Shown here: positions 10,442 to 32,320 of the stretch, piece by piece
Layout: each line of letters starts with the position of its first letter
Position numbering within the stretch: the stretch's first letter is position 1
Virus record (IMG/VR): IMGVR_UViG_3300050821_006736
Span: 1 to 32,807 of that record
From: a virus
Length of the DNA: 32,807 nucleotides
Reading direction: 5' to 3' (one strand)
Program-made: the position numbers and the translations under genes
The notes under the pieces: generated by a model
What the model saw: only the letters and a program-made list of their open reading frames with translations
Told to the model about the DNA's origin: nothing
Database searches by the model: none

Positions 10442-10704
10442 CTCGCCCCCTGATAGATCAAAGCCGCTGACCGCATCCTCTCGTACTTGATCGCGTGGCT
10501 GATCGTCGAATGGTCACGGTTATCGAGGAATATCCCGATCTGGGTTGTCGATCGGCCGGTGGTCTCGCGCGCCTCGACGATGAAGCGGCGGCGAAGATTG
10601 GCGAGGTTGAATCGCTTCGACCGGCCGCGCAACTCACGGATCGTGATGTCCTCCCGTGCGCAGAAGCGTTCGGCGAGAATGGCGAGGGTGATGCGGCCGG
10701 TCAT
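10438..10704 (-). CDS. DnaA domain IV-like DNA-binding protein
   Basis: This 88-aa protein resembles only the C-terminal DNA-binding domain of the replication initiator DnaA: an LAILAERFCAREDITIREL helix, RRFIVEARETTGRSTTQIG, and the signature DNRDHSTISHAIKYER. There is no AAA+ domain. Such stand-alone domains can bind DnaA-box-like sites and could affect host or phage initiation. The start at 10704 overlaps the upstream stop (TGATG), which I prefer to ATG 10776. Confidence 0.8.
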   Translation of the reverse strand: MTGRITLAILAERFCAREDITIRELRGRSKRFNLANLRRRFIVEARETTGRSTTQIGIFLDNRDHSTISHAIKYERMRSAALIYQGAS

Positions 10705-10898
10705 CAGTCGTCCCGCCTTGCTGGAAACACCTCCAGCAACTTGGCGCACAATGACGCCCCGTATTTCCTCGCCCATGCCGCCTCTTTGGCCTCGTCGCCC
10801 ATGGCGCGGTCGAGAGCGTTCCAGCAGTCGTCCACGGCGAGTTCGTCATCGAATGGCGGTGGCGGGATGATGGCGCCGCATGTGTCTCGGATGGTCAT
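10704..10898 (-). CDS. Hypothetical acidic protein
   Basis: This 64-aa protein is not recognised. It has a Pro-rich AIIPPPPFDDE stretch followed by helical segments (DCWNALDRAMGDEAKEAAW). It overlaps its neighbours at both ends (ATGA upstream, TGATG downstream). Confidence 0.6.
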   Translation of the reverse strand: MTIRDTCGAIIPPPPFDDELAVDDCWNALDRAMGDEAKEAAWARKYGASLCAKLLEVFPARRDD

Positions 10899-13095: not shown

Positions 13096-13250
13096 CCCTT
13101 CTCTCCCGTTACGGCCAGGACGATGGCTTCGAGGGCGCGGAGCTCGATGGCGTGTCTCGCCAAAAACAACGGTCGCATGTCCCTCAACTCCGCGATCCGC
13201 CGCAGAACCGCACGGTCGATCTCCTCGATCTGCTCTGGCGTGGGAGTCAT
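13092..13250 (-). CDS. Small helical protein (52 aa)
   Basis: The product begins MTPTPEQIEEIDRAVLRRIA and is almost wholly helical, with RHAIELRALEAIVLAVTGEKG. Its TPEQI start resembles the TPxQI family but the rest differs. It overlaps the HTH gene upstream by ATGA and the next gene by GTGA. Confidence 0.6.
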   Translation of the reverse strand: MTPTPEQIEEIDRAVLRRIAELRDMRPLFLARHAIELRALEAIVLAVTGEKG

Positions 13251-13444
13251 CCCTTCACCCGATATACGCGCTCGGCGTTCATGGCCCTCAGAATCTTGGG
13301 TCCAGGTGAACTGCGGCCACTAAGAAAATCATTAACGAAGCCGTTCGACACGCCATGACAAAGCGCCCAATCCAGAGCGTTACCTTTGACCTGTTTGCGC
13401 AGGAGCATCCGTAGAGCGTCCTCGGTGAGGATCTGATCGGTCAT
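13247..13444 (-). CDS. XRE/Cro-like small HTH protein, predicted leaderless
   Basis: This 65-aa protein contains LDWALCHGVSNGFVNDFLSG and PGPKILRAM, the HTH pattern of small phage XRE-like proteins. It is a paralogue of the protein at 25,996-26,187, sharing the GPKIL end and HTH spacing. It is the first gene downstream of the promoter at 13,451-13,479, with no ribosome site and a -10 only 6 nt upstream. It may regulate the leftward operon; the true target is unknown. Confidence 0.7.
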   Translation of the reverse strand: MTDQILTEDALRMLLRKQVKGNALDWALCHGVSNGFVNDFLSGRSSPGPKILRAMNAERVYRVKG

Positions 13445-15128: not shown

Positions 15129-15160
15129 CGAACATGTTCGAACATGTTCGGTTCTGTTCG
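15129..15160. promoter_or_regulatory. Tandem CGAACATGTTCG palindromes
   Basis: Two perfect 12-bp palindromes CGAACATGTTCG overlap by 2 bp (15129-15140 and 15139-15150), followed by a degenerate third unit ending GTTCG at 15160. The repeat unit is 10 bp, one helical turn, which suits cooperative binding of a dimeric repressor on one face of the DNA. It differs from the alphaproteobacterial SOS box (GTTC-N7-GTTC). Confidence 0.6.
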
Positions 15161-15534
15161 GCGTACGCAAGAGGGGTGACGGAGGGTTGGGTTGGCTACT
15201 ACCGGAGAGCCAAGAGCCGATGGGTGGGTAAGAGGCTCGGCGAGAAGAAAAGGCCGCTGATACAAGCGTGAGTGATCACTCGTGATAAGCGTCGGTCTGG
15301 GTTATCGAGGGTTGTGATAAACGCACATCGAGCGCGCAACTCCAGGGGTGGCGGGTCGGCCATCCTCCCCCTTCCCGCTCACATCCGCCCGCTACATGCA
15401 TGTGCGCCCGCATAATGCGCCCCCGTGTACGACCCGCAGCTTACACGCACGCTATGTGCGAGGGCGCGGACGGGTCACACGCGCGGAAGTTACCTAACAC
15501 TCCCGCACACGTAGGAGCTTGGCCGTAATGGCTG

Positions 15535-15563
15535 TTGAGTCACAACGCCATTGCGCGTACACT
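15535..15563 (+). promoter_or_regulatory. Promoter with ACGC-N6-GCGT operator, copy 1
   Basis: TTGAGT (15535-15540), 17-bp spacer, TACACT (15558-15563). ACGC at 15545 and GCGT at 15555-15558 form an inverted repeat whose right arm runs into the -10. The leader carries AAGGAG before ATG 15584. Confidence 0.65.
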
Positions 15564-15583
15564 CATCGCAAAGGAGCGCACAC

Positions 15584-16198
15584 ATGAACGTCCTCATAGC
15601 CTGCGAATTTTCCGGCGTTGTCCGTGACGCATTCCGTCGACGTGGTCATGAAGCCTGGTCGTGCGATCTGTCGGGAATCGAGCCTGAAGGCGAATGGCCG
15701 AACTACCACCTTGAAGGCGATTGCCGATGGTTCATGGACGGCAAGAGTGGGCCGTGTGCGAAGTGGGATCTGCTGATCGCCCACCCGCCCTGCACCTACC
15801 TCGCGAACAGCGGCGTACGCTGGCTGTATGGCGGAAAAGGTGACGCGCCCGATCCCGAACGGTGGGCGTCGATGCGCGAGTCGGCGGCGCTCTTTCGCGA
15901 CATGCTGAACGCGCCAATCGAACGGATAGCCGTCGAAAATCCGGTCATGCACGGCCATGCGCGGAAGCTGATTGACGCCGACCCTGCACAGACGATCCAG
16001 CCTTGGTGGTTTGGCCACGGCGAGACGAAAGCGACGTGTCTCTGGCTGAAGAACCTTCCGCCGCTCGCGCCGACAGACATCGTTTCCGGGCGGGCAGCTC
16101 GCGTTCACCGTGCGTCGCCGGGGCCGGATAGGTGGAAAGAGCGCTCGCGCACGTTGCCGGGAATCGGTGCGGCGATGGCCGAACAATGGGGCGGATAA
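15584..16198 (+). CDS. DNA cytosine-methyltransferase-like protein
   Basis: This 204-aa protein begins MNVLIACEFSGVVRDAFRRR with GHEAWSCDLS, the SAM-binding start of the C5-methyltransferase fold. LIAHPPCTYLANSG (catalytic Cys70 of the PC motif) and AVENPVMH (an ENV-like motif) follow. It is much shorter than full C5 enzymes and lacks an obvious target-recognition domain. Possible roles are DNA modification against host restriction or another base-modifying reaction. AAGGAG lies 7 nt upstream; it is the first gene of the rightward operon. Confidence 0.78.
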   Translation: MNVLIACEFSGVVRDAFRRRGHEAWSCDLSGIEPEGEWPNYHLEGDCRWFMDGKSGPCAKWDLLIAHPPCTYLANSGVRWLYGGKGDAPDPERWASMRESAALFRDMLNAPIERIAVENPVMHGHARKLIDADPAQTIQPWWFGHGETKATCLWLKNLPPLAPTDIVSGRAARVHRASPGPDRWKERSRTLPGIGAAMAEQWGG

Positions 16199-16225
16199 AA
16201 TCCATGCAAGGCCCTTACAAACCGC

Positions 16226-16253
16226 TTGACCCCCACGCGCAATGGCGTAGTGT
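16226..16253 (+). promoter_or_regulatory. Promoter with ACGC-N6-GCGT operator, copy 2
   Basis: TTGACC (16226-16231), 16-bp spacer, TAGTGT (16248-16253). ACGC at 16235-16238 and GCGT at 16245-16248 repeat the same palindrome. It drives the 22-aa peptide gene and the genes after it. Confidence 0.62.
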
Positions 16254-16283
16254 GAGTGAACGCAAAAAGGGAGCACGAGTCAC

Positions 16284-16352
16284 ATGCTCGAAATCACCGT
16301 CCTGATTATCGCGATTGCCGGCATGTTCATCGGCTTCAAGTTTCTCGCTTAG
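16284..16352 (+). CDS. 22-aa single-span membrane peptide
   Basis: The product is MLEITVLIIAIAGMFIGFKF followed by LA. It has a promoter, AAAGGGAG before the ATG, and a separate ribosome site for the next gene right after its stop. The length and composition fit a tiny membrane regulator or lysis-related peptide; the role is unknown. Confidence 0.6.
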   Translation: MLEITVLIIAIAGMFIGFKFLA

Positions 16353-16363
16353 GGAGCGCCACA

Positions 16364-16612
16364 ATGACCATCAAAACCCAATCCGACCTAGCGTGGCAAC
16401 GCGCCGAACTGACGATGGAAGTCGGTGAGCTTGGCGAGCTGTCCACGCTTCGATACCTCAATAGCGAGGGTACGCGCTGCATGGACGTTTTCGACGATGG
16501 CTACGTCGACAAAGGTCTTCGCCTGCTGACCTTCGACACCCCGCAGGCCGCGCAAGCCGCCATCCATGCGGCAGACTGTGCGCTGGCCTATCTGCAAGTC
16601 ATGTTTGGGTGA
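16364..16612 (+). CDS. Hypothetical protein
   Basis: This 82-aa protein begins MTIKTQSDLAWQRAELTMEV and has helical segments (TPQAAQAAIHAADCALAYLQ). No family is recognised. GGGAGC lies about 7 nt before the ATG. Confidence 0.65.
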   Translation: MTIKTQSDLAWQRAELTMEVGELGELSTLRYLNSEGTRCMDVFDDGYVDKGLRLLTFDTPQAAQAAIHAADCALAYLQVMFG

Positions 16613-16616
16613 CGCC

Positions 16617-16787
16617 ATGCTGACAACCCCCATCATAATCTCGCTCTACCTCACCGCAGGGCGCGACCTGTGCCCACGCTGGAATCGTCCGGCGTATGGT
16701 CAAGCCGCATGGTTTGGCATGTGGGCGAACGAATGCGCCGTGACAATCATGGCGTTGGAATCTGAAACCAAGGAGTCGGAACAATGA
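16617..16787 (+). CDS. Hypothetical small protein
   Basis: This 56-aa protein begins MLTTPIIISLYLTAGRDLCP with a hydrophobic N-terminal half, possibly a signal or membrane segment, and an acidic end. It starts 4 nt after the previous stop and its stop overlaps the next ATG. Confidence 0.55.
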   Translation: MLTTPIIISLYLTAGRDLCPRWNRPAYGQAAWFGMWANECAVTIMALESETKESEQ

Positions 16788-17002
16788 CCAAGTACAACGG
16801 ACATCGCAGCTGGAACGCGTGGAACGTCTCGCTATGGATTGCGAACGAAGAACCGCTTTATCGGCGCGCTATCGAGTTGAAGCGCAAGTATGGTTCGCAA
16901 CGCGCCGCTCGCCTGTTCCTGTGCGAACTGGACGACAAGACGCCTGACGGCGCGACGTACAACGTGACGTGCGTTCGTGAAGCGCTGGCGGGACTCGAAT
17001 AG
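16784..17002 (+). CDS. Conserved phage protein (NGHRSWNAWNVSLWI type)
   Basis: This 72-aa protein begins MTKYNGHRSWNAWNVSLWIA, a start I recognise from small conserved proteins in many phages and plasmids. It is helical and basic in the middle (YRRAIELKRKYGSQRAARLF). No biochemical role is known to me. It is coupled by ATGA to the gene before. Confidence 0.72.
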   Translation: MTKYNGHRSWNAWNVSLWIANEEPLYRRAIELKRKYGSQRAARLFLCELDDKTPDGATYNVTCVREALAGLE

Positions 17003-17087
17003 CCTTGACGCTCTACACGCGGGACGCTCGGTCACTCATCCCGCCTATCGAGCGCCAATAGTGGTGTTTGAAATAGGAGGAATCCTT

Positions 17088-17279
17088 ATGAAGTTCACCC
17101 TGACCATTAAATGCGACAACAAAGCGTTTTCCGAGGAGGGCGCTAGCCATGAGGTCTCCCGTATCCTTTCAGAGGTCGCGGGTAAGATTGCCTTCTATGG
17201 GGTGCTACACGATGGCGTTTTCGTTGCTCTCCGAGACCTGAACGGCAACCGCATCGGCTCATGGGAGACATCGGCTTAA
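17088..17279 (+). CDS. Hypothetical protein
   Basis: This 63-aa protein begins MKFTLTIKCDNKAFSEEGAS and has a strand-helix-strand look ending IGSWETSA. The strong TAGGAGGA site 7-8 nt before ATG 17088 fixes the start. No specific function can be given. Confidence 0.7.
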   Translation: MKFTLTIKCDNKAFSEEGASHEVSRILSEVAGKIAFYGVLHDGVFVALRDLNGNRIGSWETSA

Positions 17280-17283
17280 CCAC

Positions 17284-17472
17284 ATGATCCCACCCACCCA
17301 GATCCGAAAACTCACAGCGGCCGGATATCGCGTCGGACAAGGCGCGTCCGGCCGCTTCTACGTGACCTTCCCTGGCCAAACCCACTGCGCCGCCTACGAG
17401 TCGTCGGAAGCGGCATGGCAGGCGGCCAAATCCCACGCCACACGGCAGGGTTGGGCGTGGCGTGGTAGGTGA
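17284..17472 (+). CDS. Small TPxQIxxLKAAGY-family protein, copy 2
   Basis: This 62-aa protein begins MIPPTQIRKLTAAGYRVGQG and ends with AAWQAAKSHATRQG. It is a divergent relative of the proteins at 12,674-12,862 and 30,017-30,208, keeping the QI..L.AAGY start and the AW.AA.SH end. It starts 4 nt after the previous stop. Confidence 0.6.
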   Translation: MIPPTQIRKLTAAGYRVGQGASGRFYVTFPGQTHCAAYESSEAAWQAAKSHATRQGWAWRGR

Positions 17473-17781
17473 TTGCCAAAAATGAGGAAAGGGCCTGTAC
17501 GGTCATAAAATGGGCCATAGCGTAAACGAACGCTGCAATACGCCTATACGGCGCAGCTCTAAAAGTAGAGCTTGGCTCCAACCTTGACCATTGACCCCGC
17601 CGGCAGCTCGATCCGAACCCTGCCCGAATTTTCCCCAAAATCCCAAAACCACCCAACTATTTTGAAGGCAAAAATGAATCGTCCGGTTCGGATTCCGGGT
17701 TTGAATTTTCGGCAATCGGTGGTTGCGCGGGAACTCGGATTGGCGTAGGGGTGGTGGGAGTTTTAGAGAGGACGGAAAATC
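17473..17781. other. Intergenic region with hairpin and promoter
   Basis: About 309 bp with no convincing gene. It holds a perfect 7-bp hairpin with a 4-nt loop (AGCTCTA 17555-17561, TAGAGCT 17566-17572) not followed by T's, a Pro/Lys-poor AT-rich stretch near 17630-17680, and the promoter at 17723-17751. Short in-frame peptides of about 25 codons exist but lack ribosome sites. Confidence 0.5.
17723..17751 (+). promoter_or_regulatory. Promoter, degenerate ACGC-N6-GCGT operator
   Basis: TTGCGC (17723-17728), 17-bp spacer, TAGGGG (17746-17751). The right half-site GCGT is present and the left reads ACTC instead of ACGC. GAGAGGA precedes ATG 17782. Confidence 0.45.
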
Positions 17782-17997
17782 ATGAGTGCGTGGTGGGATG
17801 AAGATCACAAGCTATGCTTGCTGACTCCAGCCGAATTTGCGGCGTTGCCGGATGGTGAGGAATTGACCTGTATCGACGATGAAGTCGCCATAAAAGGCAG
17901 GGATTACATCGACGGTGACACCCGAGCCGGCCACATGGCCTACGGGGTGGTTGGTGACCATCCGCTTCGGGTGGCGTTACTGGCCAAGACGTCATGA
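17782..17997 (+). CDS. Hypothetical protein
   Basis: This 71-aa acidic protein begins MSAWWDEDHKLCLLTPAEFA. No family is recognised. GAGAGGA is about 10 nt upstream; it is first in a chain of overlapping genes. Confidence 0.62.
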   Translation: MSAWWDEDHKLCLLTPAEFAALPDGEELTCIDDEVAIKGRDYIDGDTRAGHMAYGVVGDHPLRVALLAKTS

Positions 17998-18182
17998 CCC
18001 TCGGCGAATTCCGCAAGGCGACCGCGAAGTTGCCGGATAGTACAAAAGTGGTGATAAAAGGCGGCGACCGTATCGCCTACGAACTGGAGGGAGTTAGGCC
18101 AATGAAGGTTCTCCCCGGCGCTCCAGGTGGAAGCTATTACACCAATGCCGGCGGTACGGTTTCAGCATTGGTGCTAGACTGA
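17994..18182 (+). CDS. Hypothetical protein
   Basis: This 62-aa protein begins MTLGEFRKATAKLPDSTKVV, with a helix then strands, and ends GGTVSALVLD. It overlaps the gene before by ATGA. A small strand-rich domain is likely; the function is unknown. Confidence 0.6.
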   Translation: MTLGEFRKATAKLPDSTKVVIKGGDRIAYELEGVRPMKVLPGAPGGSYYTNAGGTVSALVLD

Positions 18183-18183
18183 C

Positions 18184-18357
18184 ATGCGCACCCTCATCAA
18201 CCTCTCCGGCGGCTTCCTCATCGGCGTCATGGCCAATCACCTCGCCAACAGCGGCTGGCCGTACTGGCCGGTGATGATCGACGACATGCTGCTCGTGGTG
18301 TGGTGGGTGGTGATCGCGACGCCTGCGATCACGCGGATGATGGGGGATAGGCCATGA
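18184..18357 (+). CDS. Two-span membrane protein (57 aa)
   Basis: The product begins MRTLINLSGGFLIGVMANHL and later has MLLVVWWVVIATPAI, so two hydrophobic segments are visible. ATG 18184 lies 1 nt after the previous stop, and its stop overlaps the next ATG. The function is unknown; a holin-like role is possible but not shown. Confidence 0.55.
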   Translation: MRTLINLSGGFLIGVMANHLANSGWPYWPVMIDDMLLVVWWVVIATPAITRMMGDRP

Positions 18358-18503
18358 CCCGCCACATCAACAACGCCCAGCGCACCGAACGATCGGCCCA
18401 CATCCTTGACCTCGCCCGAAAAGGCGTGGAGCCTGAAGCCGTGGCAGAGCGGTTGGGCATCACGCTCAAGCATGTGCGGGAAGTGTTGAGGGGCGCGAAG
18501 TGA
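18354..18503 (+). CDS. Small HTH protein (49 aa)
   Basis: The product contains HILDLARKGVEPEAVAERLG followed by ITLKHVREVLRG, a helix-turn-helix of the type in small phage or resolvase-like regulators. It overlaps its neighbours by ATGA and TGATG. The DNA target is unknown. Confidence 0.62.
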   Translation: MTRHINNAQRTERSAHILDLARKGVEPEAVAERLGITLKHVREVLRGAK

Positions 18504-18733
18504 TGAGTAAGTGGCAACCGATCGAGACGGCGCCCCGTAACAGGCGCATCCTGATTCACAGCATGTCCCCCGCAACCGGACATCACAGCGTCCATCTGGT
18601 GTGGTGGCGATCGCCTTATGAGGGCGGTGAACATCTCGGATTCTGGGAACAATATCTCTGGGGATCAGAGAGCCATCCCGTCGTGCCGCAGTTCACGCAC
18701 CACTGGATGGATTTACCGGAGCCACCAGAATGA
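18503..18733 (+). CDS. DUF551-like protein
   Basis: This 76-aa protein begins MSKWQPIETAPRNRRILIHS and ends THHWMDLPEPPE. The WqPIETAP start and aWMpLPePP end are typical of the DUF551 family in phages and prophages, whose function is unknown. ATG 18503 overlaps the previous stop (TGATG). Confidence 0.78.
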   Translation: MSKWQPIETAPRNRRILIHSMSPATGHHSVHLVWWRSPYEGGEHLGFWEQYLWGSESHPVVPQFTHHWMDLPEPPE

Positions 18734-18780
18734 GCGCCGACGAATTTTGCCTATCGTGGCAATGTGAACGGAGAAACGAG

Positions 18781-19140
18781 ATGAAGTTGAATCACAAAAA
18801 TATCCGCAAGGTACGAGATCACATCTCTGGGTTGGAGCCTAACAAATTCGACATGATGACATGGGGGCGCAGACACTCATGCGACACTGCCGCGTGCATC
18901 GGCGGCTGGGCGGATCGTGTGTGTGGGATTACGTCAGTCCATTACACTGAAACTGCCGATGTTCTCGGCATATCCTACGTTGACGCCGGCAAGCTGTTCT
19001 ATCCTCAGGACAAGTGGGAGTTTTCCGAATGCCCATATCGCGCCACCCCCGCCCAAGCCGCCCGCGTCCTCGACATCCTCGACAAAACCGGCGAGGTGCG
19101 GTGGGATCTGGCGATGGCGGAAGTGCTGGAGCCGGCGTGA
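18781..19140 (+). CDS. Hypothetical protein with Cys pair
   Basis: This 119-aa protein begins MKLNHKNIRKVRDHISGLEP and contains HSCDTAACIGGWADRVCG. No family name is certain. GGAGAAACGAG lies before ATG 18781; an in-frame ATG at 18730, overlapping the previous stop as ATGA, would add 17 residues and cannot be excluded. Confidence 0.62.
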   Translation: MKLNHKNIRKVRDHISGLEPNKFDMMTWGRRHSCDTAACIGGWADRVCGITSVHYTETADVLGISYVDAGKLFYPQDKWEFSECPYRATPAQAARVLDILDKTGEVRWDLAMAEVLEPA

Positions 19141-19265
19141 AACTCACGCCCGTCGCCGCATCGTTCATCCTGACCGTTGGCAGTGCGTGCGCAGTCGCCG
19201 CAGCCCTGTCGACGGTCGCTTTTTGCGTGATGTGGGTGGGATTGAGTTGGGCAGGTGCGATATGA
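19137..19265 (+). CDS. Small membrane protein (42 aa)
   Basis: The product begins MKLTPVAASFILTVGSACAV and runs on as an Ala-, Val- and Trp-rich helix (AFCVMWVGLSWAGAI). One long or two short spans. GTG 19137 overlaps the previous stop (GTGA). Confidence 0.58.
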   Translation: MKLTPVAASFILTVGSACAVAAALSTVAFCVMWVGLSWAGAI

Positions 19266-19278
19266 AAGGGATACCCCA

Positions 19279-19770
19279 ATGCGATATCCCCCGGCTGTCA
19301 TCCCGGATCTCGGGCCGTACCGCCGTATCCTCCGCCGCGAACTCCGGGGCGCGCAGGAATGCCTCTGCCCCTACTGCGGCGGCTGGCTGCCACGCGGCCT
19401 GCGGAACACGCTGAACCCGGAATATCCGACGCTGGAGCATGTGCGCCCGGCTAAGTTCGGTCGCGAGTTCAAGCGCACGCCCGGCGCCAAGTCTGCCCGC
19501 GCCTCTTCCCTCATGCGCAACGCCCTGCTCGTGCATGGCCGATGCAACAAGCGGAAGGACAATCGCGATCCGACCGCCTGCGAACTGATCTGGCTTGAGG
19601 CGGTCAACGTCCAGATCGAATGGTTGTGGCGGCAGATCGAGCGGCAGGCCGAAGCGCTAGACCGCCGCAGCCACTTGCTCACTCTTGCCACCGAACTCGA
19701 CGAGCCAGATGAGATCGCCATTGACCCCGATCCGCTGCTGGGCTGCGAGCCCATGAAGCGCACGGCCTAG
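19279..19770 (+). CDS. HNH endonuclease
   Basis: This 163-aa protein has CLCPYCGGWLP (C-x2-C), YPTLEHVRPAKFG with the HNH histidine, and RNALLVHGRCNKRKDNR followed by DPTACELIWLE. That order (Cys pair, EH, then H-x2-CN-x-K) is the HNH nuclease fold, used by phage packaging-associated, restriction-like and homing nucleases. AAAGGG lies about 8 nt before ATG 19279. The last 114 bp overlap the convergent ATPase gene on the other strand. Its exact role is unknown. Confidence 0.78.
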   Translation: MRYPPAVIPDLGPYRRILRRELRGAQECLCPYCGGWLPRGLRNTLNPEYPTLEHVRPAKFGREFKRTPGAKSARASSLMRNALLVHGRCNKRKDNRDPTACELIWLEAVNVQIEWLWRQIERQAEALDRRSHLLTLATELDEPDEIAIDPDPLLGCEPMKRTA

Positions 19771-20811
19771 GCGCATACGGGCCGCATCCATCTTCTCGCC
19801 GTCGAGTCGGAACGCGCCGTTCATCAGGTGCTTGGCGAGATCCTTCCTGTCGATAGCCCGCGTCCACGGCTTCACGCCGGCCAGGAAGGGTGGCGGCGGT
19901 TGAGTCCGGCCGCCGTCGACCACATCCCTGATGCCGACCAGGACGAGCTGCTCGATGGCCGTCATCGCTTTCTTACGGCGGCGGGGATTGGCCCTGTCAG
20001 GTGAGGCTTCGTAGGCGCAGATGCACGAGGAGAGCGTGTCGCCGTCGTCATCGATCATGTCGAGTTCGACGCTCTCCAGCCGGAACGACAGCTTTGCTCC
20101 GTCCCGTGCATTCTTGACCTTGGAAATCGTCAGCGTGCGGAGATCGGGATCGTCTTCGTCCCGCTCCAGCGAGATCGTGGCGTCTGAATTGGCGTCCAGG
20201 CCCGACCATCCCCTGATCCCGCGATCCTCTCCCGCTTTGCCGAAGTGGGCCACGACCAGGATCAGCGCGCCCATCTGATGGCCCAGCTTGGCGAGGTTGT
20301 CGAACGCCTGACTCATCGCCTCGCTACCGTTCTCGTCGGCGCCTGGAATGCATCGGCTGAACGTGTCGACTACGATCAGCCCAAGCCGTTGTCCCAACGA
20401 TTCGAACCTTTGATGGCTGATGGCGAGGGATTCGGCGAGCTGCGCCAGATCGTCATGGTTGAGGAGGTTGACCCGCTGACCGTAGAAATCGAACGGGAGG
20501 TCGGCCGCTTTGTACGTCTGCCGCCACGCCACGATCCGTGTGCGACACCCCTCGGCGTCTTCGGCCCCGATGTACGCCACGCCTGTCCTGCGCGTTCGCT
20601 TGTCCATCACCTTCATGCCGCTCGATATGCGCAACGACATGTCCAGCCCGAGGAACGATTTTCCCGCCTTGGTCGCGCCGACCAGGAAAGCGACACCGGT
20701 GGCTGGCAACACGCTCTTGACGAGCCATGGAATGGTGGACGGGGCGACGGAAAGGTACGGCTCTGCCCGAAAACGTGGGGCGCTGTAGGCTAAGGTTGGC
20801 CGGGTGCCCAT
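19657..20811 (-). CDS. RepA-like AAA+ ATPase (AAA_25)
   Basis: This 384-aa protein has Walker A GATKAGKS (45-52) and Walker B LGLIVVDTFSR with Asp149. The SAPSTIPWLV start and GWSGLDANSDATISLERDE segment match RepA/AAA_25-type hexameric helicase-like ATPases of phages and plasmids. The C-terminal part (about 290-384) is helical and basic. It probably unwinds or remodels DNA at phage replication. The start at 20811 lies 5 nt after the upstream stop; it is paired with a Cro-like gene. It opposes the surrounding rightward genes. Confidence 0.82.
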   Translation of the reverse strand: MGTRPTLAYSAPRFRAEPYLSVAPSTIPWLVKSVLPATGVAFLVGATKAGKSFLGLDMSLRISSGMKVMDKRTRRTGVAYIGAEDAEGCRTRIVAWRQTYKAADLPFDFYGQRVNLLNHDDLAQLAESLAISHQRFESLGQRLGLIVVDTFSRCIPGADENGSEAMSQAFDNLAKLGHQMGALILVVAHFGKAGEDRGIRGWSGLDANSDATISLERDEDDPDLRTLTISKVKNARDGAKLSFRLESVELDMIDDDGDTLSSCICAYEASPDRANPRRRKKAMTAIEQLVLVGIRDVVDGGRTQPPPPFLAGVKPWTRAIDRKDLAKHLMNGAFRLDGEKMDAARMRLGRALHGLAAQQRIGVNGDLIWLVEFGGKSEQVAAAV

Positions 20812-20816
20812 CTCGG

Positions 20817-21026
20817 TCAGGCCGCGCGTTCTGTGGGCTGATGGGCTTGGCGTTCCCATTCTGCGAGCTGTGACCATGTCGCCATGCGCTTGCTGATCAA
20901 TGCGCCCCAATGCTTCCGCGGCGCGAACTCACGGCACCGCCAGATGCGGATTGTGTTCCGCGACACGCCGCATACTAGGGCTAGTCGGGCGCTACCTTGT
21001 TGGTCGACAAAGTTGGAAAAATTCAT
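20817..21026 (-). CDS. Cro-like HTH regulator
   Basis: This 69-aa protein has ARLALVCGVSRNTIRIWRCR and FAPRKHWGALI, the pattern of phage Cro-like or YdaS-type repressors. It is transcribed divergently from the gene at 21090 across a 63-bp region with overlapping palindromes. It is likely to control its own operon (with the ATPase) and the divergent gene. ATG 21026 follows the palindrome. Confidence 0.72.
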   Translation of the reverse strand: MNFSNFVDQQGSARLALVCGVSRNTIRIWRCREFAPRKHWGALISKRMATWSQLAEWERQAHQPTERAA

Positions 21027-21028
21027 GA

Positions 21029-21051
21029 ACAGGCATTTCCCTGTGAAATGC
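21029..21051. promoter_or_regulatory. Overlapping palindromic operator between divergent genes
   Basis: GCATTTC (21033-21039) and GAAATGC (21045-21051) form a perfect 7-bp inverted repeat around CCTGT. It is interleaved with ACAGG (21029-21033) and CCTGT (21040-21044). It sits next to the start of the Cro-like gene, as expected for an autoregulatory operator. Confidence 0.6.
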
Positions 21052-21089
21052 TTTGTGGCATGTTCCGTCAGTCGTCGCAAGGAGCTTTC

Positions 21090-21320
21090 ATGGACGAGAA
21101 ACCCCAGACTCACCCCGCGTCCCTGTGCCGCCACCCCCATCCTCACCCACTCGGATCAACCTTGTGGAACGTCCGAAAGATGGACGGCGTCTGTGTCTTT
21201 TCGTTTGGTGTCGCACATGACGTCGCGGTCAGCGCCAAAGACGCCATCAACGAGCATTGGAATTGGGCGATGGACGGCGCTTATGATGCCGTGATCAAGG
21301 CTAGCGAACACCTGAAATGA
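21090..21320 (+). CDS. Hypothetical protein divergent from Cro-like gene
   Basis: This 76-aa protein begins MDEKPQTHPASLCRHPHPHP, a His/Pro-rich start, followed by a domain with VCVFSFGVAHDVAVSAKDAI. AAGGAG lies 6 nt before the ATG. No family is recognised. Confidence 0.62.
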   Translation: MDEKPQTHPASLCRHPHPHPLGSTLWNVRKMDGVCVFSFGVAHDVAVSAKDAINEHWNWAMDGAYDAVIKASEHLK

Positions 21321-21523
21321 TCACCAGCGCCCTCACCCCGACCCTCGGTTTCCGGCGCGAGAAATCGTGGCCCGGCGACGACTGCACGCTGATCCTGATC
21401 TCACGAGAAACCGATCTGTTTCAGCGCCTCGACTGGCTATACGGCGACGCTGCCGTTCGCATGTCCGATCCGGAATGGGACATGGATCTGGAGAGGTGGC
21501 ACAATCTCGGATGCCGGCGGTGA
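21317..21523 (+). CDS. Hypothetical protein
   Basis: This 68-aa protein begins MITSALTPTLGFRREKSWPG and contains LILISRETDLFQRLDWLYG. It is coupled to its neighbour by ATGA. No family is recognised. Confidence 0.55.
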   Translation: MITSALTPTLGFRREKSWPGDDCTLILISRETDLFQRLDWLYGDAAVRMSDPEWDMDLERWHNLGCRR

Positions 21524-21705
21524 AACCCGCCGCCCGCAGCTCATTCGTCCCAGCCCGAACCCGACCGCCCCGCCATGACCCGCCCCTGCACCCCTGCGAG
21601 GCGTGTGACCGATGGGGCTGCTACGGCTACGGATGGCCGATCTGCCCCACCATGCGATGGTTCTGCCCCGACCACCGGCCGATCGATGTTGGAGACATGA
21701 TATGA
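21511..21705 (+). CDS. Cys-rich zinc-binding-like protein
   Basis: This 64-aa protein has HPCEACDRWGCYGYGWPICP and WFCPDHRP, with several Cys and His in zinc-knuckle spacing. Such small Cys-rich proteins are common in phages, often of unknown role. It overlaps the gene before by 13 bp and the next by ATGA. Confidence 0.6.
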   Translation: MPAVKPAARSSFVPARTRPPRHDPPLHPCEACDRWGCYGYGWPICPTMRWFCPDHRPIDVGDMI

Positions 21706-21932
21706 TCCGCAACATGGAAGCCCTCCGAGAACACCTCGCCGCCGGCAACACCGTCAGCCTTCAGGGCTTGTACGAAGGCCGGGGATTTCGGCTGGCGACA
21801 TCGGACACCAACGAGACCGTTAGTCGGCAGGCGTTATATGCGCTCATGCGACGCGACGAAGTGATGCCCGTTCAATTCGATATGGCGGGTGATCCGTGCG
21901 AGTGGGGAATCGATCGGGTCATTTACGATTAG
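21702..21932 (+). CDS. Hypothetical protein
   Basis: This 76-aa protein begins MIRNMEALREHLAAGNTVSL with a helical start and an acidic end (DMAGDPCEWGIDRVIYD). No family is recognised. ATG 21702 overlaps the previous stop. Confidence 0.6.
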   Translation: MIRNMEALREHLAAGNTVSLQGLYEGRGFRLATSDTNETVSRQALYALMRRDEVMPVQFDMAGDPCEWGIDRVIYD

Positions 21933-21935
21933 CGC

Positions 21936-21964
21936 TTGCATCCCAACGCCAACCGGCGTACACC
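21936..21964 (+). promoter_or_regulatory. Promoter with ACGC-N6-GCGT operator, copy 3
   Basis: TTGCAT (21936-21941), 17-bp spacer, TACACC (21959-21964), with ACGC at 21946-21949 and GCGT at 21956-21959. A CAGGAG site precedes ATG 21989. The -35 begins 4 nt after the previous stop. Confidence 0.65.
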
Positions 21965-21988
21965 GTCATCAGCATTTCAGGAGATCAC

Positions 21989-22309
21989 ATGCCGAGAACC
22001 GCAGCCCAGCCTCTTTCAGATCCGGCCATTGTCCCTCGCGCGGCTAGGAAGCCGTCAGATGAGTTCATGCTCACCGGCATCAACGCCCTGCGTGAGCGTG
22101 ACGAGGACTCCCTGATCGTGGCCAAGTGCAAGGGGCCGAAGCAGTTTCCCGGCTCGACCATCGAGATGGTGATGTTCAACGGCGAGGCGCTGCTGATGTT
22201 GCAGCGACCGTCCGGCAAGTTCACGCTGTTCAAGAAGTTCGATCTGCCGCATGAGGTGATCGACTTCACCAAGGCTTCCGTCGATAGTTCGGACGAACTG
22301 CCCGACTGA
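21989..22309 (+). CDS. Hypothetical protein
   Basis: This 106-aa protein begins MPRTAAQPLSDPAIVPRAAR and contains MLTGINALRERDEDSLIVAK and FNGEALLMLQRPSGKFTLFK. The strand-rich second half suggests a small folded domain. No family is recognised. CAGGAG lies about 7 nt before the ATG. Confidence 0.65.
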   Translation: MPRTAAQPLSDPAIVPRAARKPSDEFMLTGINALRERDEDSLIVAKCKGPKQFPGSTIEMVMFNGEALLMLQRPSGKFTLFKKFDLPHEVIDFTKASVDSSDELPD

Positions 22310-22311
22310 GA

Positions 22312-22350
22312 TTATCGCGTCGCCGCGCCCCCGTCCAAGCGGCGCGATAA
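22312..22350. repeat. GC-rich hairpin 1 (intercistronic)
   Basis: TTATCGC (22312-22318) pairs with GCGATAA (22344-22350) and GCCGC (22322-22326) with GCGGC (22339-22343), with a 3-nt bulge. It abuts hairpin 2. No T-run follows, so it may be an attenuator or RNA-stability element rather than a canonical terminator. Confidence 0.65.
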
Positions 22351-22383
22351 CCGCCCGGCGTCAACACCCCCGGCGCCGGGCGG
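22351..22383. repeat. GC-rich hairpin 2 (intercistronic)
   Basis: CCGCCCGGCG (22351-22360) pairs perfectly with CGCCGGGCGG (22374-22383). It directly follows hairpin 1 and precedes the GapR-like gene by 20 nt. The downstream ACCCTTATTAGG is only weakly T-rich. Confidence 0.65.
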
Positions 22384-22403
22384 ACCCTTATTAGGAGCCC
22401 CCA

Positions 22404-22673
22404 ATGACCGAGCCCACCCTAATCGGCGACAACTCCCTCACGCCCGGCGCTGGCCCACGGATCAAGGAATTTGTGGAGCGGGCAGAACGTATTGGTGAGG
22501 ATATCGCCAACCTGAAAGCAGACCTCAAAGAGATTTTTGAGGAAGCAAAAGGTCAGAACTTCGACGTCAAAATGATCCGTAAGATCATCAAACTTCGCGC
22601 CGAAGATCCAGCCAAGCGAGAAGAAGAAGAGGCAATGCTCGCCCTCTACATCAGCGCCATTGGAGGTTTGTGA
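22404..22673 (+). CDS. GapR-like (DUF2312) DNA-binding protein
   Basis: This 89-aa protein has RIKEFVERAERIGEDIANLK and FDVKMIRKIIKLRAEDPAKR followed by EEEEAMLALYISAIGG. This is the DUF2312/GapR pattern. GapR is an alphaproteobacterial nucleoid protein that binds overtwisted DNA ahead of replication and transcription. A phage copy could organise phage DNA or interfere with host chromosome control. The start follows AGGAG; the next gene overlaps by TGATG. Confidence 0.88.
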   Translation: MTEPTLIGDNSLTPGAGPRIKEFVERAERIGEDIANLKADLKEIFEEAKGQNFDVKMIRKIIKLRAEDPAKREEEEAMLALYISAIGGL

Positions 22674-22819
22674 TGGCGAGGCGGAGGCGGTCATTGATGA
22701 CTCAATGGCCGTCTGGGATAAATAGTGCCTTCGCCCTGATCGCCATCGCACTTTTTCTCGCGGCGGTGATTGTGTACGCACCCATTTTGGCGTACGTATT
22801 CAGTGGGTCGCGTCCCTGA
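22673..22819 (+). CDS. Small membrane protein (48 aa)
   Basis: The product begins MARRRRSLMTQWPSGINSAF, basic, and then has a transmembrane helix (ALIAIALFLAAVIVYAPILA). It overlaps the GapR-like gene by TGATG. The 3' part contains the inverted repeat GTACGC-N10-GCGTAC (22774-22795). Confidence 0.6.
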   Translation: MARRRRSLMTQWPSGINSAFALIAIALFLAAVIVYAPILAYVFSGSRP

Positions 22820-22835
22820 CGTGATCTGCCCTTCC

Positions 22836-22862
22836 TGGGCGATCCTCCCTTAACTGCCCCGG
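22836..22862 (+). repeat. Terminator-associated direct repeat, copy 1
   Basis: 27 bp matching the copy at 24328-24354 at 22 positions. It covers the segment before and the start of the terminator stem. Confidence 0.6.
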
Positions 22863-22904
22863 ATGGCAGCGCCATGATAATGCTGTTCATCCGGGGCATT
22901 TTTT
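22855..22904 (+). terminator. Rho-independent terminator upstream of beta-helix gene
   Basis: TGCCCCGGATG (22855-22865) pairs perfectly with CATCCGGGGCA (22888-22898), followed by TTTTTT (22899-22904). It ends the rightward unit before the beta-helix gene. Its upstream flank is related to that of the terminator at 24348. Confidence 0.85.
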
Positions 22905-22915
22905 AGGTCCAGTCT

Positions 22916-24319
22916 ATGCCGGTCTCTCAGGTTGTCTTCGTTCCACCGTTCACCCCCGCCGACGTGATCACGATGCAACAGCTTGCCGGTATCACGCCCG
23001 CCGGACCTCCCGGCCCGACTCCGGTCAACGACTTCCCAGCCGATCCGACTCAGGCTCCCACAAGTCCCGAGAATAGCCAGATCATGCTGTTCAACGACAC
23101 CATCGTCGGCGAGCCCTACTTGAAGGACAGCAGCGGCACGATACACACCCTCGTATTGGCGCCAGGGAACACCGCGGCGAATCCGCTCACGACCTACATG
23201 GTCAACGGCTTCCCGGCGCATGGCGGCGCGATAGGATCGGATCAGCCGGTCCTCCTCCTGGTCCGCCAGGGCGGCGTCTATGTGCAGTTCTCCGGCGGCG
23301 AGTGGCAACAATTCGACGTGGGGACGGGATCGATGGAGCCGGCCCAACTCCCGGCCCCTGCGGCTCCCGGAGGCCCACCGACGCAACCCGCACTCCCGAC
23401 CCTCCCCACGCCATCGTCCGTGGCTCCCGGATCGTCCGGGAACATCATTACATGCGGCGTCGGCCAACCCCTGGCGACCCTCTCCGCGGCGATCCCGACC
23501 GCACAGGCTGGAGACACCATCCAGCTTGTCGCCGGGACCTACACCGACACACCGCCGGCATGGACGGTCCCTCTATTGATCGATCTGGGAGGCGCCACGC
23601 TCAACGCGACCGGACAGACGGCCAACCTCGCGCGTGGCAAGGGCCTTCTGGTCCCGTGCGCCGACAGCATCATCAGGAACGGGACCATAACCGGCGTCGC
23701 GATGGATCAGCCGACCGGCGAACTCACCTACGCGATTCGGCCGGATGCTGGCCTCGGCTACCTCACCATCAGCGACATGCAGATTCACGCCTGCCAGGGC
23801 GCGGTTGGCGAGGGCGGGATCGGCGCCTGCGTCATCACGCTCACCGACTGCGACATCAGCGGCAATGGCCTGACATCGAACAACGGGACGGCGCTGTCCC
23901 ACAACCTCTATGTCGGCGCGGATTGCATCACCCTGACGCTGAACAATGTCACTTCGACCGGCCCGACCGAGGGCCATGCGATCAAGTACCGCGGCCCGCA
24001 GCTTGCCGTCTCGGGCGGCAGCTTCGCGTCCTCGCCCGGTAAGCCGTTCGATCTACCCAACGGCGGGTCCGTGCCGTTCACGATTACGGGAGCGTCTATC
24101 GTGAAGAACGCCGACGACGTGGACCACGGCATCATCGGCTACGGCGAAGAGGGCGCGACCAACGGTACGGCCGGCGGCTCGATCAGCGATGGCTCGATCT
24201 CCGCGGCATGTCCGAACCCCTACATGACCGGCCCTGGCGGGACGATCACGATGGTCGGCGTCACCCTGACCGGGAACACGATCACCGCGCAGGGCGGCCT
24301 TACGCTGGTTGGCTCGTAG
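22916..24319 (+). CDS. Right-handed beta-helix tail-spike/tail-fibre-like protein
   Basis: This 467-aa protein has an N-terminal part (about 1-135) with an FxxxGxPxLxD-like strand region, a Pro-rich linker (about 140-172), and a C-terminal domain (175-467) made of short repeated strands with Thr, Gly and Asn turns (GQPLATLSAAIPTAQAGDTI; YLTISDMQIHA; ITLTDCDISGNG), typical of parallel beta-helices of pectate-lyase-like tail spikes. It may bind or cleave host surface glycans. It lies alone between two terminators. No strong ribosome site is seen (AGG about 8 nt upstream), and its promoter is unclear. Confidence 0.78.
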   Translation: MPVSQVVFVPPFTPADVITMQQLAGITPAGPPGPTPVNDFPADPTQAPTSPENSQIMLFNDTIVGEPYLKDSSGTIHTLVLAPGNTAANPLTTYMVNGFPAHGGAIGSDQPVLLLVRQGGVYVQFSGGEWQQFDVGTGSMEPAQLPAPAAPGGPPTQPALPTLPTPSSVAPGSSGNIITCGVGQPLATLSAAIPTAQAGDTIQLVAGTYTDTPPAWTVPLLIDLGGATLNATGQTANLARGKGLLVPCADSIIRNGTITGVAMDQPTGELTYAIRPDAGLGYLTISDMQIHACQGAVGEGGIGACVITLTDCDISGNGLTSNNGTALSHNLYVGADCITLTLNNVTSTGPTEGHAIKYRGPQLAVSGGSFASSPGKPFDLPNGGSVPFTITGASIVKNADDVDHGIIGYGEEGATNGTAGGSISDGSISAACPNPYMTGPGGTITMVGVTLTGNTITAQGGLTLVGS

Positions 24320-24327
24320 CTCAGTCC

Positions 24328-24354
24328 TGGGTGATCCTGACATGACTGCCCCGG
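24328..24354 (+). repeat. Terminator-associated direct repeat, copy 2
   Basis: Second copy of the 27-bp element at 22836-22862 (22 identities), here after the beta-helix gene. The two copies bracket a single gene. Confidence 0.6.
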
Positions 24355-24386
24355 CTCTACGGTGCGAATCGTAGGCCGGGGCTTTT
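24348..24386 (+). terminator. Rho-independent terminator after beta-helix gene
   Basis: GCCCCGGC (24348-24355) pairs with GCCGGGGC (24375-24382) and the inner CTACG (24357-24361) with CGTAG (24370-24374), followed by TTTT (24383-24386). Confidence 0.85.
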
Positions 24387-24452
24387 CGTTATTGGCCGTA
24401 CCCACGAGCTAGGAACAGGGTCGGCATACCGGGAATGACGCTATTCCGGCGA

Positions 24453-24473
24453 CCACCGAACGGATGTCGGTGG
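24453..24473. terminator. Hairpin after leftward membrane-protein gene
   Basis: CCACCGA (24453-24459) pairs with TCGGTGG (24467-24473) around a 7-nt loop. It lies just downstream of the leftward gene at 24486 and could end that unit, but no T-run follows. Confidence 0.4.
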
Positions 24474-24485
24474 GATTGGGTTCCG

Positions 24486-24683
24486 TCAGTTGAGCGGGTG
24501 TGATCCCAGCGACAGGCCGCCGCTACCCAGCAGAAGTTGTAGCAATACGATCAGCACGATCAGAGCCACAACTACGCGCGCGATCACACCGAACGGTGCG
24601 GGCAAAGGGACAAGCCCTATAGCCCAAATGAAAACTCCGGCTATCAGACATATGATTAAAATTGTGACCAAAAGCGACAGCAT
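24486..24683 (-). CDS. Two-span membrane protein
   Basis: This 65-aa protein begins MLSLLVTILIICLIAGVFIW and then has a second hydrophobic run (VVVALIVLIVLLQLLLG), with a Pro turn between. Such small proteins resemble bacterial Thivi_2564-like membrane proteins; a holin-like role is possible. GGAG lies 7 nt before the ATG. Confidence 0.7.
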   Translation of the reverse strand: MLSLLVTILIICLIAGVFIWAIGLVPLPAPFGVIARVVVALIVLIVLLQLLLGSGGLSLGSHPLN

Positions 24684-24722
24684 AACGCATCTCCAGTGCG
24701 AGAGCGCAACGTATGGCTGTGG

Positions 24723-25028
24723 TTATGGTTGCCCGTAACGGGTGGTGAGGTCGGCGAGGTAGTCGGCCACCTCATCGTCACCCAGCCCAGCAGACAACGC
24801 CCGCAGATGAGCCTTGATCGCCCGCATGTGGCCGTTCCGTAGCTGACCATCCGCAAGTCGCTTTGCAGCCGACTTGGCCACCGTGTCCGCCTCCTCGTCG
24901 CCGAGGATCTGCTCGGCTTCCCACAGGGCGTCACGGGCGCGCAGGATGAGCTGTTCCCATGGCGTCGGGTGGGAAGCCGCTTCCTTCTCGGCGATCCACC
25001 GCTCCAGATCCATGAGGCGCTCAGGCAT
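24723..25028 (-). CDS. Hypothetical helical protein
   Basis: This 101-aa protein begins MPERLMDLERWIAEKEAASH and is mostly helical and acidic (LILRARDALWEAEQILGDEE). It overlaps the VRR-NUC gene by 8 bp. No family is recognised. Confidence 0.62.
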   Translation of the reverse strand: MPERLMDLERWIAEKEAASHPTPWEQLILRARDALWEAEQILGDEEADTVAKSAAKRLADGQLRNGHMRAIKAHLRALSAGLGDDEVADYLADLTTRYGQP

Positions 25029-25479
25029 CGCGGATGATGTCGTAGCGGTTGGCGTGCTGCCACGAGACGCGGGGGGTGATACCGAACGCTATCAGGGCGC
25101 GCTCGACTTCTTCCAGGGACCTTGCAAGCGCCCACACCATCCGATTTGACCGTGCGCAGTGATCCCGGAACCCTCGCTGCTCTGCGGTCAGTGTGCCGTT
25201 GTCGGGGGCTTTAAGCTCGATGAAGCGGCATACGCCATCTGGCGGCATCAACATGATATCCGGCCAGCCCCGATTTTGGCCCGATGCCTTTGCCTTGGCT
25301 CGTGTCGTGTGCCCCATGCGCGCGCCAGCCATCGAAGCCGTCGACAGAACGTCATCGGGAAGCGTCCACTTCAGATACGTGGCGACGGCGACTTGGAGCT
25401 TGTGTTCGGGATCATCGTTTTTGCGGTGGGTGGTTCGGCCTTGGCGGTAGGCATAGGCGGACATGCGCTGCTGGGTCAT
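25021..25479 (-). CDS. VRR-NUC domain nuclease
   Basis: This 152-aa protein has PEHKLQVAVATYLKW, GWPDI (71-75) and CRFIELKAPDNGTLTAEQ with Glu88 and Lys90, the PD-(D/E)xK motifs of VRR-NUC. These small nucleases occur in phages with replication or recombination genes and may resolve or cut branched DNA. ATG 25479 overlaps the methyltransferase stop (ATGA). Confidence 0.88.
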   Translation of the reverse strand: MTQQRMSAYAYRQGRTTHRKNDDPEHKLQVAVATYLKWTLPDDVLSTASMAGARMGHTTRAKAKASGQNRGWPDIMLMPPDGVCRFIELKAPDNGTLTAEQRGFRDHCARSNRMVWALARSLEEVERALIAFGITPRVSWQHANRYDIIRDA

Positions 25480-26003
25480 GAGAGGCGTCCGTAAAACTCG
25501 GCCGGACGGGAGAACATCGGAACCGTGAACAGGTGCCATGCGCAATTGTCCTTGCCGGTCATCGTCGTTCCGGGAATCCACTTCAAGCGACCGATTGACA
25601 CGATCGTACGCAAACGCGGCATAAACGGAATCGCCTGTTGGGTGTGAACCCAATCCGCATCGAATAGAAGCCAAGTAGGGTGCTGGTCCGATAGATGCAC
25701 GATCAACGTGTGCAGGACAGGCCTCGCCCACGGTGGATTAGTGATGAAACAATCAATGTTTCCGATCATACGATCGGTCGCGTCTTGTTTTGCAACCCGA
25801 GGCGAACGCGGGTCGATATCCCAAGCCGCCACGCATGTGTGGCCCCCAAGCTCCTCAAGGTAATCGATTAATGCCCCGTTCCCGGCACATGGCTCGCAGA
25901 ATTGGGTTTCTCGCAAGAGGTGAGGTAGCAGGGGCGGGACAGCTTCTCGCGGGGTTGGATAAAAGTCTCTTTCCACTCTCTGGAAATCGCTTCGTTTACC
26001 CAA
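25476..26003 (-). CDS. DNA N6-adenine methyltransferase-like protein
   Basis: About 175 aa, with RDFYPTP, FCEPCAGNG (SAM-binding motif I, about 35-43) and FITNPPWAR (catalytic NPPW, about 89-92). This is the gamma/N6 amino-methyltransferase arrangement used for host-like DNA methylation, possibly to escape restriction. The start is uncertain: a TTG at 26003 (used here) or an upstream TTG at 26024; both overlap the HTH gene end. The recognition sequence is unknown. Confidence 0.82.
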   Translation of the reverse strand: MGKRSDFQRVERDFYPTPREAVPPLLPHLLRETQFCEPCAGNGALIDYLEELGGHTCVAAWDIDPRSPRVAKQDATDRMIGNIDCFITNPPWARPVLHTLIVHLSDQHPTWLLFDADWVHTQQAIPFMPRLRTIVSIGRLKWIPGTTMTGKDNCAWHLFTVPMFSRPAEFYGRLS

Positions 26004-26187
26004 TTTCGAAATACCCCTTCTCAAACCCCAACGCCGCCAGGATCTTCGGCCCCGGTGGCTTGCGCCCCTTGATCACGTCATTGATATAGCCGGGCGAGAT
26101 GGGCGGCTTCTGACGCCGGCCCCACTCGTGCATATCCGTTTTATCGGTCTCGGCTTTCAGGGCCGCCCTGACATCGTCTTCGGTCAT
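25996..26187 (-). CDS. XRE/Cro-like HTH regulator, predicted leaderless
   Basis: This 63-aa protein has MHEWGRRQKPPISPGYINDV followed by IKGRKPPGPKILAALGFEKG, a paralogue of the protein at 13,247-13,444. It is divergent from the RHH gene at 26268 with overlapping promoters, which is the layout of a genetic switch. There is no ribosome site; the -10 of its promoter is 6 nt before ATG 26187. Confidence 0.75.
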   Translation of the reverse strand: MTEDDVRAALKAETDKTDMHEWGRRQKPPISPGYINDVIKGRKPPGPKILAALGFEKGYFEIG

Positions 26188-26193
26188 GATGGG

Positions 26194-26222
26194 TGCATAC
26201 GCCAATTTGGGAGAGGGGGCAA
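26194..26222 (-). promoter_or_regulatory. Predicted leaderless leftward promoter of the switch
   Basis: Leftward: TTGCCC (26217-26222), 17-bp spacer, TATGCA (26194-26199), 6 nt, ATG 26187. It lies back to back with the rightward promoter at 26231-26260, only 8 bp apart. Confidence 0.62.
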
Positions 26223-26230
26223 ATGGGCGC

Positions 26231-26260
26231 TTGCAGTCGCCACGCATATCGGCGTATATG
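26231..26260 (+). promoter_or_regulatory. Predicted leaderless rightward promoter with operator, copy 4
   Basis: TTGCAG (26231-26236), 18-bp spacer, TATATG (26255-26260), 7 nt, ATG 26268. ACGC (26242-26245) and GCGT (26252-26255) repeat the palindrome of the other rightward promoters. Confidence 0.62.
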
Positions 26261-26267
26261 ATCGCTT

Positions 26268-26480
26268 ATGAAATGGCGTCATCCACACAGCCCGTCGCCT
26301 ATCGGTTCGCCGGGTCCGCTGTCCGCCGGACGAAAGCAATATGCCGTTTATCTGGAAGATCCGATCAAGCGCAGAATCACGGAACTCGCCACTGCACGTG
26401 GCGTATCGTCTAGCGCGATGACTAGGACGCTGATTCAACTAGGTCTTGAGAAATTGGCGGAGATCGAAAACAAGCCATGA
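26268..26480 (+). CDS. Ribbon-helix-helix (CopG/Arc-like) regulator
   Basis: This 70-aa protein has a basic, Pro/Ser-rich start and then RKQYAVYLEDPIKRRITELA with RGVSSSAMTRTLIQLGLEKL, the strand-helix-helix of CopG/Arc-type DNA-binding proteins. It is divergent from the XRE-like gene, and the two may repress one another. No ribosome site is seen; the start lies 7 nt after a promoter -10. Confidence 0.78.
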   Translation: MKWRHPHSPSPIGSPGPLSAGRKQYAVYLEDPIKRRITELATARGVSSSAMTRTLIQLGLEKLAEIENKP

Positions 26481-30979: not shown

Positions 30980-31140
30980 AAGTCACCTACCAGGATTGCT
31001 CCGCCTGCGTTAACCGGGTTCTGATCGAGGAAGATCCGGTCAGATGGATATGCAAGGCGCAGGGATTCCTGGTCGGCAACAAGGTCATCAACTGCAAAAA
31101 GTTCAAGCAGAGAAAATCTCTCACTTCAGGTGCGAAATAA
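30976..31140 (+). CDS. Small Cys-containing protein (54 aa)
   Basis: The product begins MKVTYQDCSACVNRVLIEED and has a C-x2-C and a basic end (NCKKFKQRKSLTSGAK). ATGA overlap with the previous gene. Its last 20 bp overlap the end of the convergent leftward gene. Confidence 0.6.
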   Translation: MKVTYQDCSACVNRVLIEEDPVRWICKAQGFLVGNKVINCKKFKQRKSLTSGAK

Positions 31141-32302: not shown

Positions 32303-32320
32303 CGCGCGCTCCACTTTGGT

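Follow-up and report, generated by a model that had tools for sequence, protein, structure and literature searches.

A shared ACGC-N6-GCGT operator in the promoters of a viral genome fragment and its proposed Cro-like repressor

The repressor and Cro proteins of phage 434 recognise operators of the form ACAA-N6-TTGT, in which a small helix-turn-helix (HTH) dimer reads two 4-bp arms around a 6-bp centre and divergent promoters share their control. Here we describe an element of the same 14-bp design, ACGC-N6-GCGT, in a stretch of viral DNA (IMG/VR record IMGVR_UViG_3300050821_006736, positions 1 to 32,807; this whole stretch of 32,807 nucleotides is referred to as the window). The element lies inside at least six promoters of the window, and its proposed reader is XRE1, a 63-aa Cro-like HTH protein (25996..26187, minus strand) that would bind as a dimer and whose gene likewise adjoins divergent promoters with shared control. 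A structural model of XRE1 aligns with the 434 repressor domain 1sq8 (Z 5.1). Nevertheless, the two systems differ in their arms (ACAA in 434, ACGC in the window) and in their layout: 434 has three sites at OR and three at OL, whereas in the window single sites are dispersed over the genome, one at each promoter, and no CI-sized partner was seen in the window fragment.

The closest experimental precedent is Aca10 of Pseudomonas citronellolis. Gel shifts demonstrated that this protein binds ATACGCTCATTGAGCGTAT, that is ACGC-N7-GCGT, overlapping the -35 and -10 elements of a core promoter (PMC9410881), and a survey of Aca families found an inverted repeat in the core promoter of each (PMC9410906). 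The system in the window has the traits of this type, a small HTH protein (dimeric in Aca10) and an inverted repeat inside the core promoter, and shares with Aca10 the half-sites TACGC/GCGTA. The XRE1 model also aligns with the Aca10 structure 7xi5 (Z 5.5, 2.5 A over 51 residues, 8% identity). The differences are that (i) the spacing is N7 in Aca10 but N6 in the window, and (ii) Aca10 controls one acr operon from the end of that operon, whereas XRE1 is encoded divergently, with at least six promoters under its proposed control. Aca10 was not among the matches to a profile of the XRE1 family up to E 10; the same profile matched Aca7 (9lx1, E 0.0013) among other HTH proteins.

The stoperators of cluster A mycobacteriophages (PMC9283540) resemble the window system in that one phage repressor (inferred here) is paired with many sites dispersed over the genome. 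Stoperators are asymmetric and terminate elongation as well, and their repressor binds as a monomer, whereas the sites in the window are palindromic and lie inside promoters. Our searches of the literature, whether for Cro together with ACGC/GCGT operators or for Rctr41k, a phage discussed below, found nothing, and no described operator was found for the XRE1 regulator family.

Operator sites in the window

The exact motif occurs four times in the window (15545-15558, 16235-16248, 21946-21959 and 26242-26255), and all four copies are on the plus strand, between genes and inside the frame TTG-N6..8-ACGC-N6-GCGTA. A first-pass annotation of the window had placed exact copies in promoters at 15535, 16226, 21936 and 26231, which are the positions of the -35 ends, with the right arm overlapping the -10 element in a common register; both statements agree with our results. 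It had also judged a chance origin very unlikely, which holds in the promoter frame, where four matches were observed against ~0.015 expected. The raw count by itself is only mildly surprising (mean 1.03 in shuffled sequences; four or more copies in 1 of 100 shuffles), and one-mismatch versions of the motif are not in excess in the window (26 versus 22 expected). The operator set is thus regarded as real because of its promoter context, and not because of the raw count.

A search of the window for TTG-N15..17-GGCGTA returned six matches on the plus strand and one on the minus strand, the expectation being 0.2 per strand. Five of the six plus-strand matches are operator sites described here, while the sixth, at 13713, is within a leftward gene and was taken as chance. 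This search added three sites to the exact copies: the one at 17733, which has the ACTC-N6-GCGT form reported for it in the first pass, and two beyond the earlier list, at 22780 (ACCC) and, leftward, at 26212-26199 (TCCC). Each of the seven sites falls in the ~10% of the window that is intergenic (90% is coding by our gene list), and the chance of the six rightward sites all falling between genes is ~1e-6.

The palindrome was also singled out when 256 four-base arms were combined with 13 gaps (0-12) and scored in the promoter frame: ACGC with a gap of 6 was the sole combination to recur, with four cases versus at most one for any other. Furthermore, the 14-mer at 15545, read on the opposite strand, is exactly the 14-mer at 16235, which is what a symmetric dimer reading a site would give. 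These results confirm a shared operator ACGC-N6-GCGT inside at least six promoters of the window.

On the plus strand, the promoter at 15535..15563, with the operator ACGCCATTGCGCGT at 15545-15558, precedes a DNA methyltransferase-like gene (15584-16198, phrog_757), and that at 16226..16253, with ACGCGCAATGGCGT at 16235-16248, precedes small genes at 16285-16612. The one-mismatch operator ACTCGGATTGGCGT at 17733-17746 belongs to a promoter at 17723..17751 ahead of a gene at 17782-17997. Farther along, the promoter at 21936..21964 carries ACGCCAACCGGCGT at 21946-21959 and leads into a gene at 21989-22309 and a GapR-like gene at 22404-22673, the DNA-binding domain of which was recognised by PF10073 (E 2.7e-24). 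The promoter-like site at 22770..22798, with the operator (ACCC-N6-GCGTA) ACCCATTTTGGCGT at 22780-22793, lies ahead of a gene at 22916-24319; a longer palindrome, GTACGC-N10-GCGTAC, surrounds this operator at 22774-22795. The last rightward promoter, at 26231..26260, carries ACGCATATCGGCGT at 26242-26255, precedes an RHH (Arc-like) protein gene at 26268-26480 together with recombination and exonuclease genes, and is identical in another viral contig, L003. The mRNA of the RHH gene is probably leaderless.

XRE1 is encoded divergently from this last site, and directly ahead of the XRE1 gene is the leftward promoter at 26194..26222 (minus strand) with a degenerate operator (TCCC-N6-GCGTA), TCCCAAATTGGCGT, at 26212-26199; the XRE1 mRNA is probably leaderless as well. 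In the divergent region between XRE1 and the RHH gene, symmetric operators, one of them degenerate, therefore overlap both the promoter of the putative regulator and the promoter opposite to it.

XRE1-family genes and the operator in other phages

The sole match to XRE1 in the phage database was from Rctr41k, a phage that differs in its gene content. Its two-gene operon holding the XRE homologue is preceded by TTGACA-AAGT-ACGC-TAATTA-GCGTACAAT, with arms, gap and register as in the window. We then searched viral contigs for the XRE1 family by protein only, with a query alignment that included the L059 protein, first met via a motif scan. In L148 (the same locus as L059) two operator promoters flank the XRE gene. 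The operator also lies at the XRE gene or operon of the Rctr41k-like L161, L162, L163 and L166, and of the AT-rich phage L179, where the palindrome is 26 bp long, AAAAGTACGCTGTTTAGCGTACTTTT. The frame TTG-N6..8-ACGC-N6-GCGTA occurred seven times in 175 kb of XRE loci versus none in 744 kb of other viral loci, the seven including the site of the window itself, a palindrome counted again in its reverse reading, and three orthologues. When palindromes upstream of 20 XRE genes were counted blind (the window and L148 excluded), TACG-N8-CGTA, which is the ACGC-N6-GCGT palindrome one base wider, ranked first with 3 of the 20 genes.

The association was also seen from the side of the DNA. Among all viral contigs, XRE1-family genes were present at 7 of 58 loci with the motif in a TTGACA promoter and at none of 66 control loci with a scrambled left arm, in equal amounts of DNA (Fisher p 0.004; p 0.016 with orthologues merged by lineage). 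One of these phages (L026) repeats the layout of the window, with a divergent XRE gene, a degenerate CCGC-N6-GCGTATAAC at the probably leaderless promoter of that gene and a perfect copy on its opposite side; in L075 the layout is divergent too. A 57-kb genome (G001) has eight promoters of the form CTTGACA-N4-ACGC-N6-GCGTACT with two mismatches at most, all in its first 10 kb, and one of these sites reads ATGC-N6-GCAT, both arms being changed symmetrically. These eight near-copies (AATAATGCTTGACATAGTACGC..., L182 494-10222) stand mostly ahead of small genes and look like a repeated promoter module. An 80-kb genome (G004) has five sites, four promoter-like TTG-N6-ACGC-N6-GCGTA on the minus strand and one at an XRE gene. 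Both genomes encode an XRE1-family protein, the match in G001 covering the helix region only, and the family was present in 7 of the 7 operator-carrying records examined. The co-occurrence spans phages of 36-62% G+C with unrelated genomes.

Other routes to relatives were less productive. Megablast among phages found no DNA relative of the window, and no relatives were found via the gene behind the 21946 site. Exonuclease relatives were found without the motif in the promoter frame, so that close synteny gave no footprint. Scans of genome contigs with the XRE alignments returned one Armatimonadetes locus, which lacks the motif, and plasmids gave no XRE-family match. One motif near a start codon (L019) lacks the TTG spacing and was treated as chance. 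In two other phages, promoters of the form TTGACA-N4-ACGC-N6-GCGTATAAT precede hicA-like toxin genes (L030 386-414, L063 6469-6497), which suggests that these half-sites may also serve HicB-type antitoxins.

The proposed repressor and competing explanations

The AlphaFold2 model of XRE1 (pLDDT 93.3) has four helices and is predicted to adopt the lambda/434-repressor fold. Its neighbours in the PDB are mostly XRE, Cro and CI proteins, lambda-type repressors as well as XRE antitoxins, including P22 c2, the 434 repressor, HipB, Aca7 and Aca10, at Z 5-6, and Pfam HTH_3 is matched by 17 of the 24 XRE1-family members. We propose, with a probability of roughly 0.75, that ACGC-N6-GCGT is the operator of XRE1 and that XRE1 acts as a repressor closing the six rightward promoters. 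An XRE1 homodimer would span both 4-bp arms, whose centres are separated by 10 bp, or one turn of the helix. The operator fills the spacer between -35 and -10, and its right arm gives the first T of the -10; a site so placed suggests that bound XRE1 would exclude RNA polymerase and shut the promoters rather than activate them. The rightward sites are better than the one at the XRE1 promoter, so negative feedback on XRE1 through its degenerate copy would come last. Judging from the sequence, the set is most likely an autoregulated repressor regulon of the Cro/CI/Aca type.

Several observations weigh against this proposal or qualify it. The -10 hexamers at these phage promoters are weak by E. 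coli standards, and a generic sigma-70 scan of the window listed none of the promoters, so that the label 'promoter' rests on position, spacing and relatives. XRE1 alone has no Pfam or PHROG match at E 0.01, and its Foldseek E-values are weak (0.13 at best). One-mismatch cases aside, many XRE1-family members have no site nearby (L149-L157, L159-L160, L164, L167-L177), among them L153 and L167, whose recognition helices resemble that of L148; the operator code is thus not universal in the family. Finally, the 58 motif loci do not exceed the 66 loci with a scrambled left arm, so the raw motif count is no evidence, and only the association with the XRE family was used.

The identity of the binder is the point at which alternatives have to be weighed. 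Pairs of CI and Cro usually share operators, and XRE1 has a paralogue in the window, XRE2 (13247..13444, minus strand), that is 40% identical and has a similar recognition helix (SNGFVNDF versus SPGYINDV in XRE1), a resemblance that also counts against XRE1 as sole reader. XRE2, or both XRE proteins, could bind the operators like lambda CI and Cro, XRE1 merely sharing the site. We regard this as unlikely because the promoter of XRE2 itself has no operator copy and it is the arrangement around XRE1 that recurs in L026 and L075. Host factors are known to control phage promoters, and the phage sequence is only a fragment, which leaves a slim chance that a host transcription factor binds the motif and that the phage promoters recruit or obey it; however, the sites track a phage-encoded family across unrelated phages, several of them at that protein's own gene. 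The RHH protein seems the least probable binder, and we rejected it as the main one. RHH proteins bind inverted 4-bp subsites spaced about one turn, and the RHH gene is the first behind the 26242 site, which would then be autoregulatory; yet no RHH homologue was found in the viral contigs except in the identical phage, and none was matched in the seven operator-carrying records (a search without a positive control, weak by itself), all seven of which have an XRE1-family gene. GcrA-like, GapR-like and DnaA-C proteins were also considered as binders, and none was found in the motif-bearing stretches examined.

The element might instead be a promoter consensus only, an extended -10 (GGCGTA) read by a host sigma factor, with the left arm arising by chance. 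GGCGTA is better kept than the left arm in the window phage, where the left arm is degenerate at three sites, 17733, 22780 and 26212. Nevertheless, we give this explanation about as slim a chance as that of a host factor: one 14-bp site is the exact reverse complement of another, the G001 site has changed symmetrically in both arms, the left arm is fully kept in phages whose -10 boxes match the consensus, and no other palindrome recurs in the promoter frame.

With XRE1 preferred as the binder, the first-pass idea of one dimeric regulator for the rightward genes remains the best reading of the sequence, with the amendment that the set is not purely rightward, the leftward XRE1 promoter having a degenerate copy. 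Among the candidates then named (XRE-like, RHH, GcrA-like and Cro-like), it is the XRE-like family that co-occurs with the operator in unrelated phages, whereas RHH and GcrA-like proteins were not found with the motif. It is attractive to speculate, at somewhat less than even odds, that tiny Cro-like proteins of unrelated phages share the ACGC-N6-GCGT code and use single copies over many promoters as a genome-wide shut-off regulon, not a local switch. A regulator family would then be tied, from sequence alone, to a concrete and testable DNA code in phages of widely differing G+C content, and the code could help to predict the regulons of phages that have not been cultivated. That the same operator recurs in unrelated phages and serves many promoters adds to its interest, and the natural promoters with graded site quality offer material on how a 63-residue repressor orders gene shut-off.

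Other features of the fragment

The proposed regulon may serve lysogeny or a timed shut-off during lytic growth. No integrase was found in the window, which is a fragment: L003 is identical to it over 7914 bases and continues for 196 bases beyond, and this 196-base tail was not found in the window. The divergent control region at 15129-15165 has GTTC every 10 bp and overlapping GAACATGTTC palindromes, possibly representing a second operator type. A small protein encoded at 10438-10776 (minus strand) has DnaA domain IV (PF08299, E 5e-11) without the ATPase part. We also noticed three probable inteins, all on the minus strand. The candidate at 862-4170 is in the portal protein, whose insert matches terminase profiles that themselves seem to be intein-bearing; that at 6568-8589 is in the terminase large subunit, with a long insert within the profile match; and that at 31121-32314 is an element with an HNH/homing-like domain.

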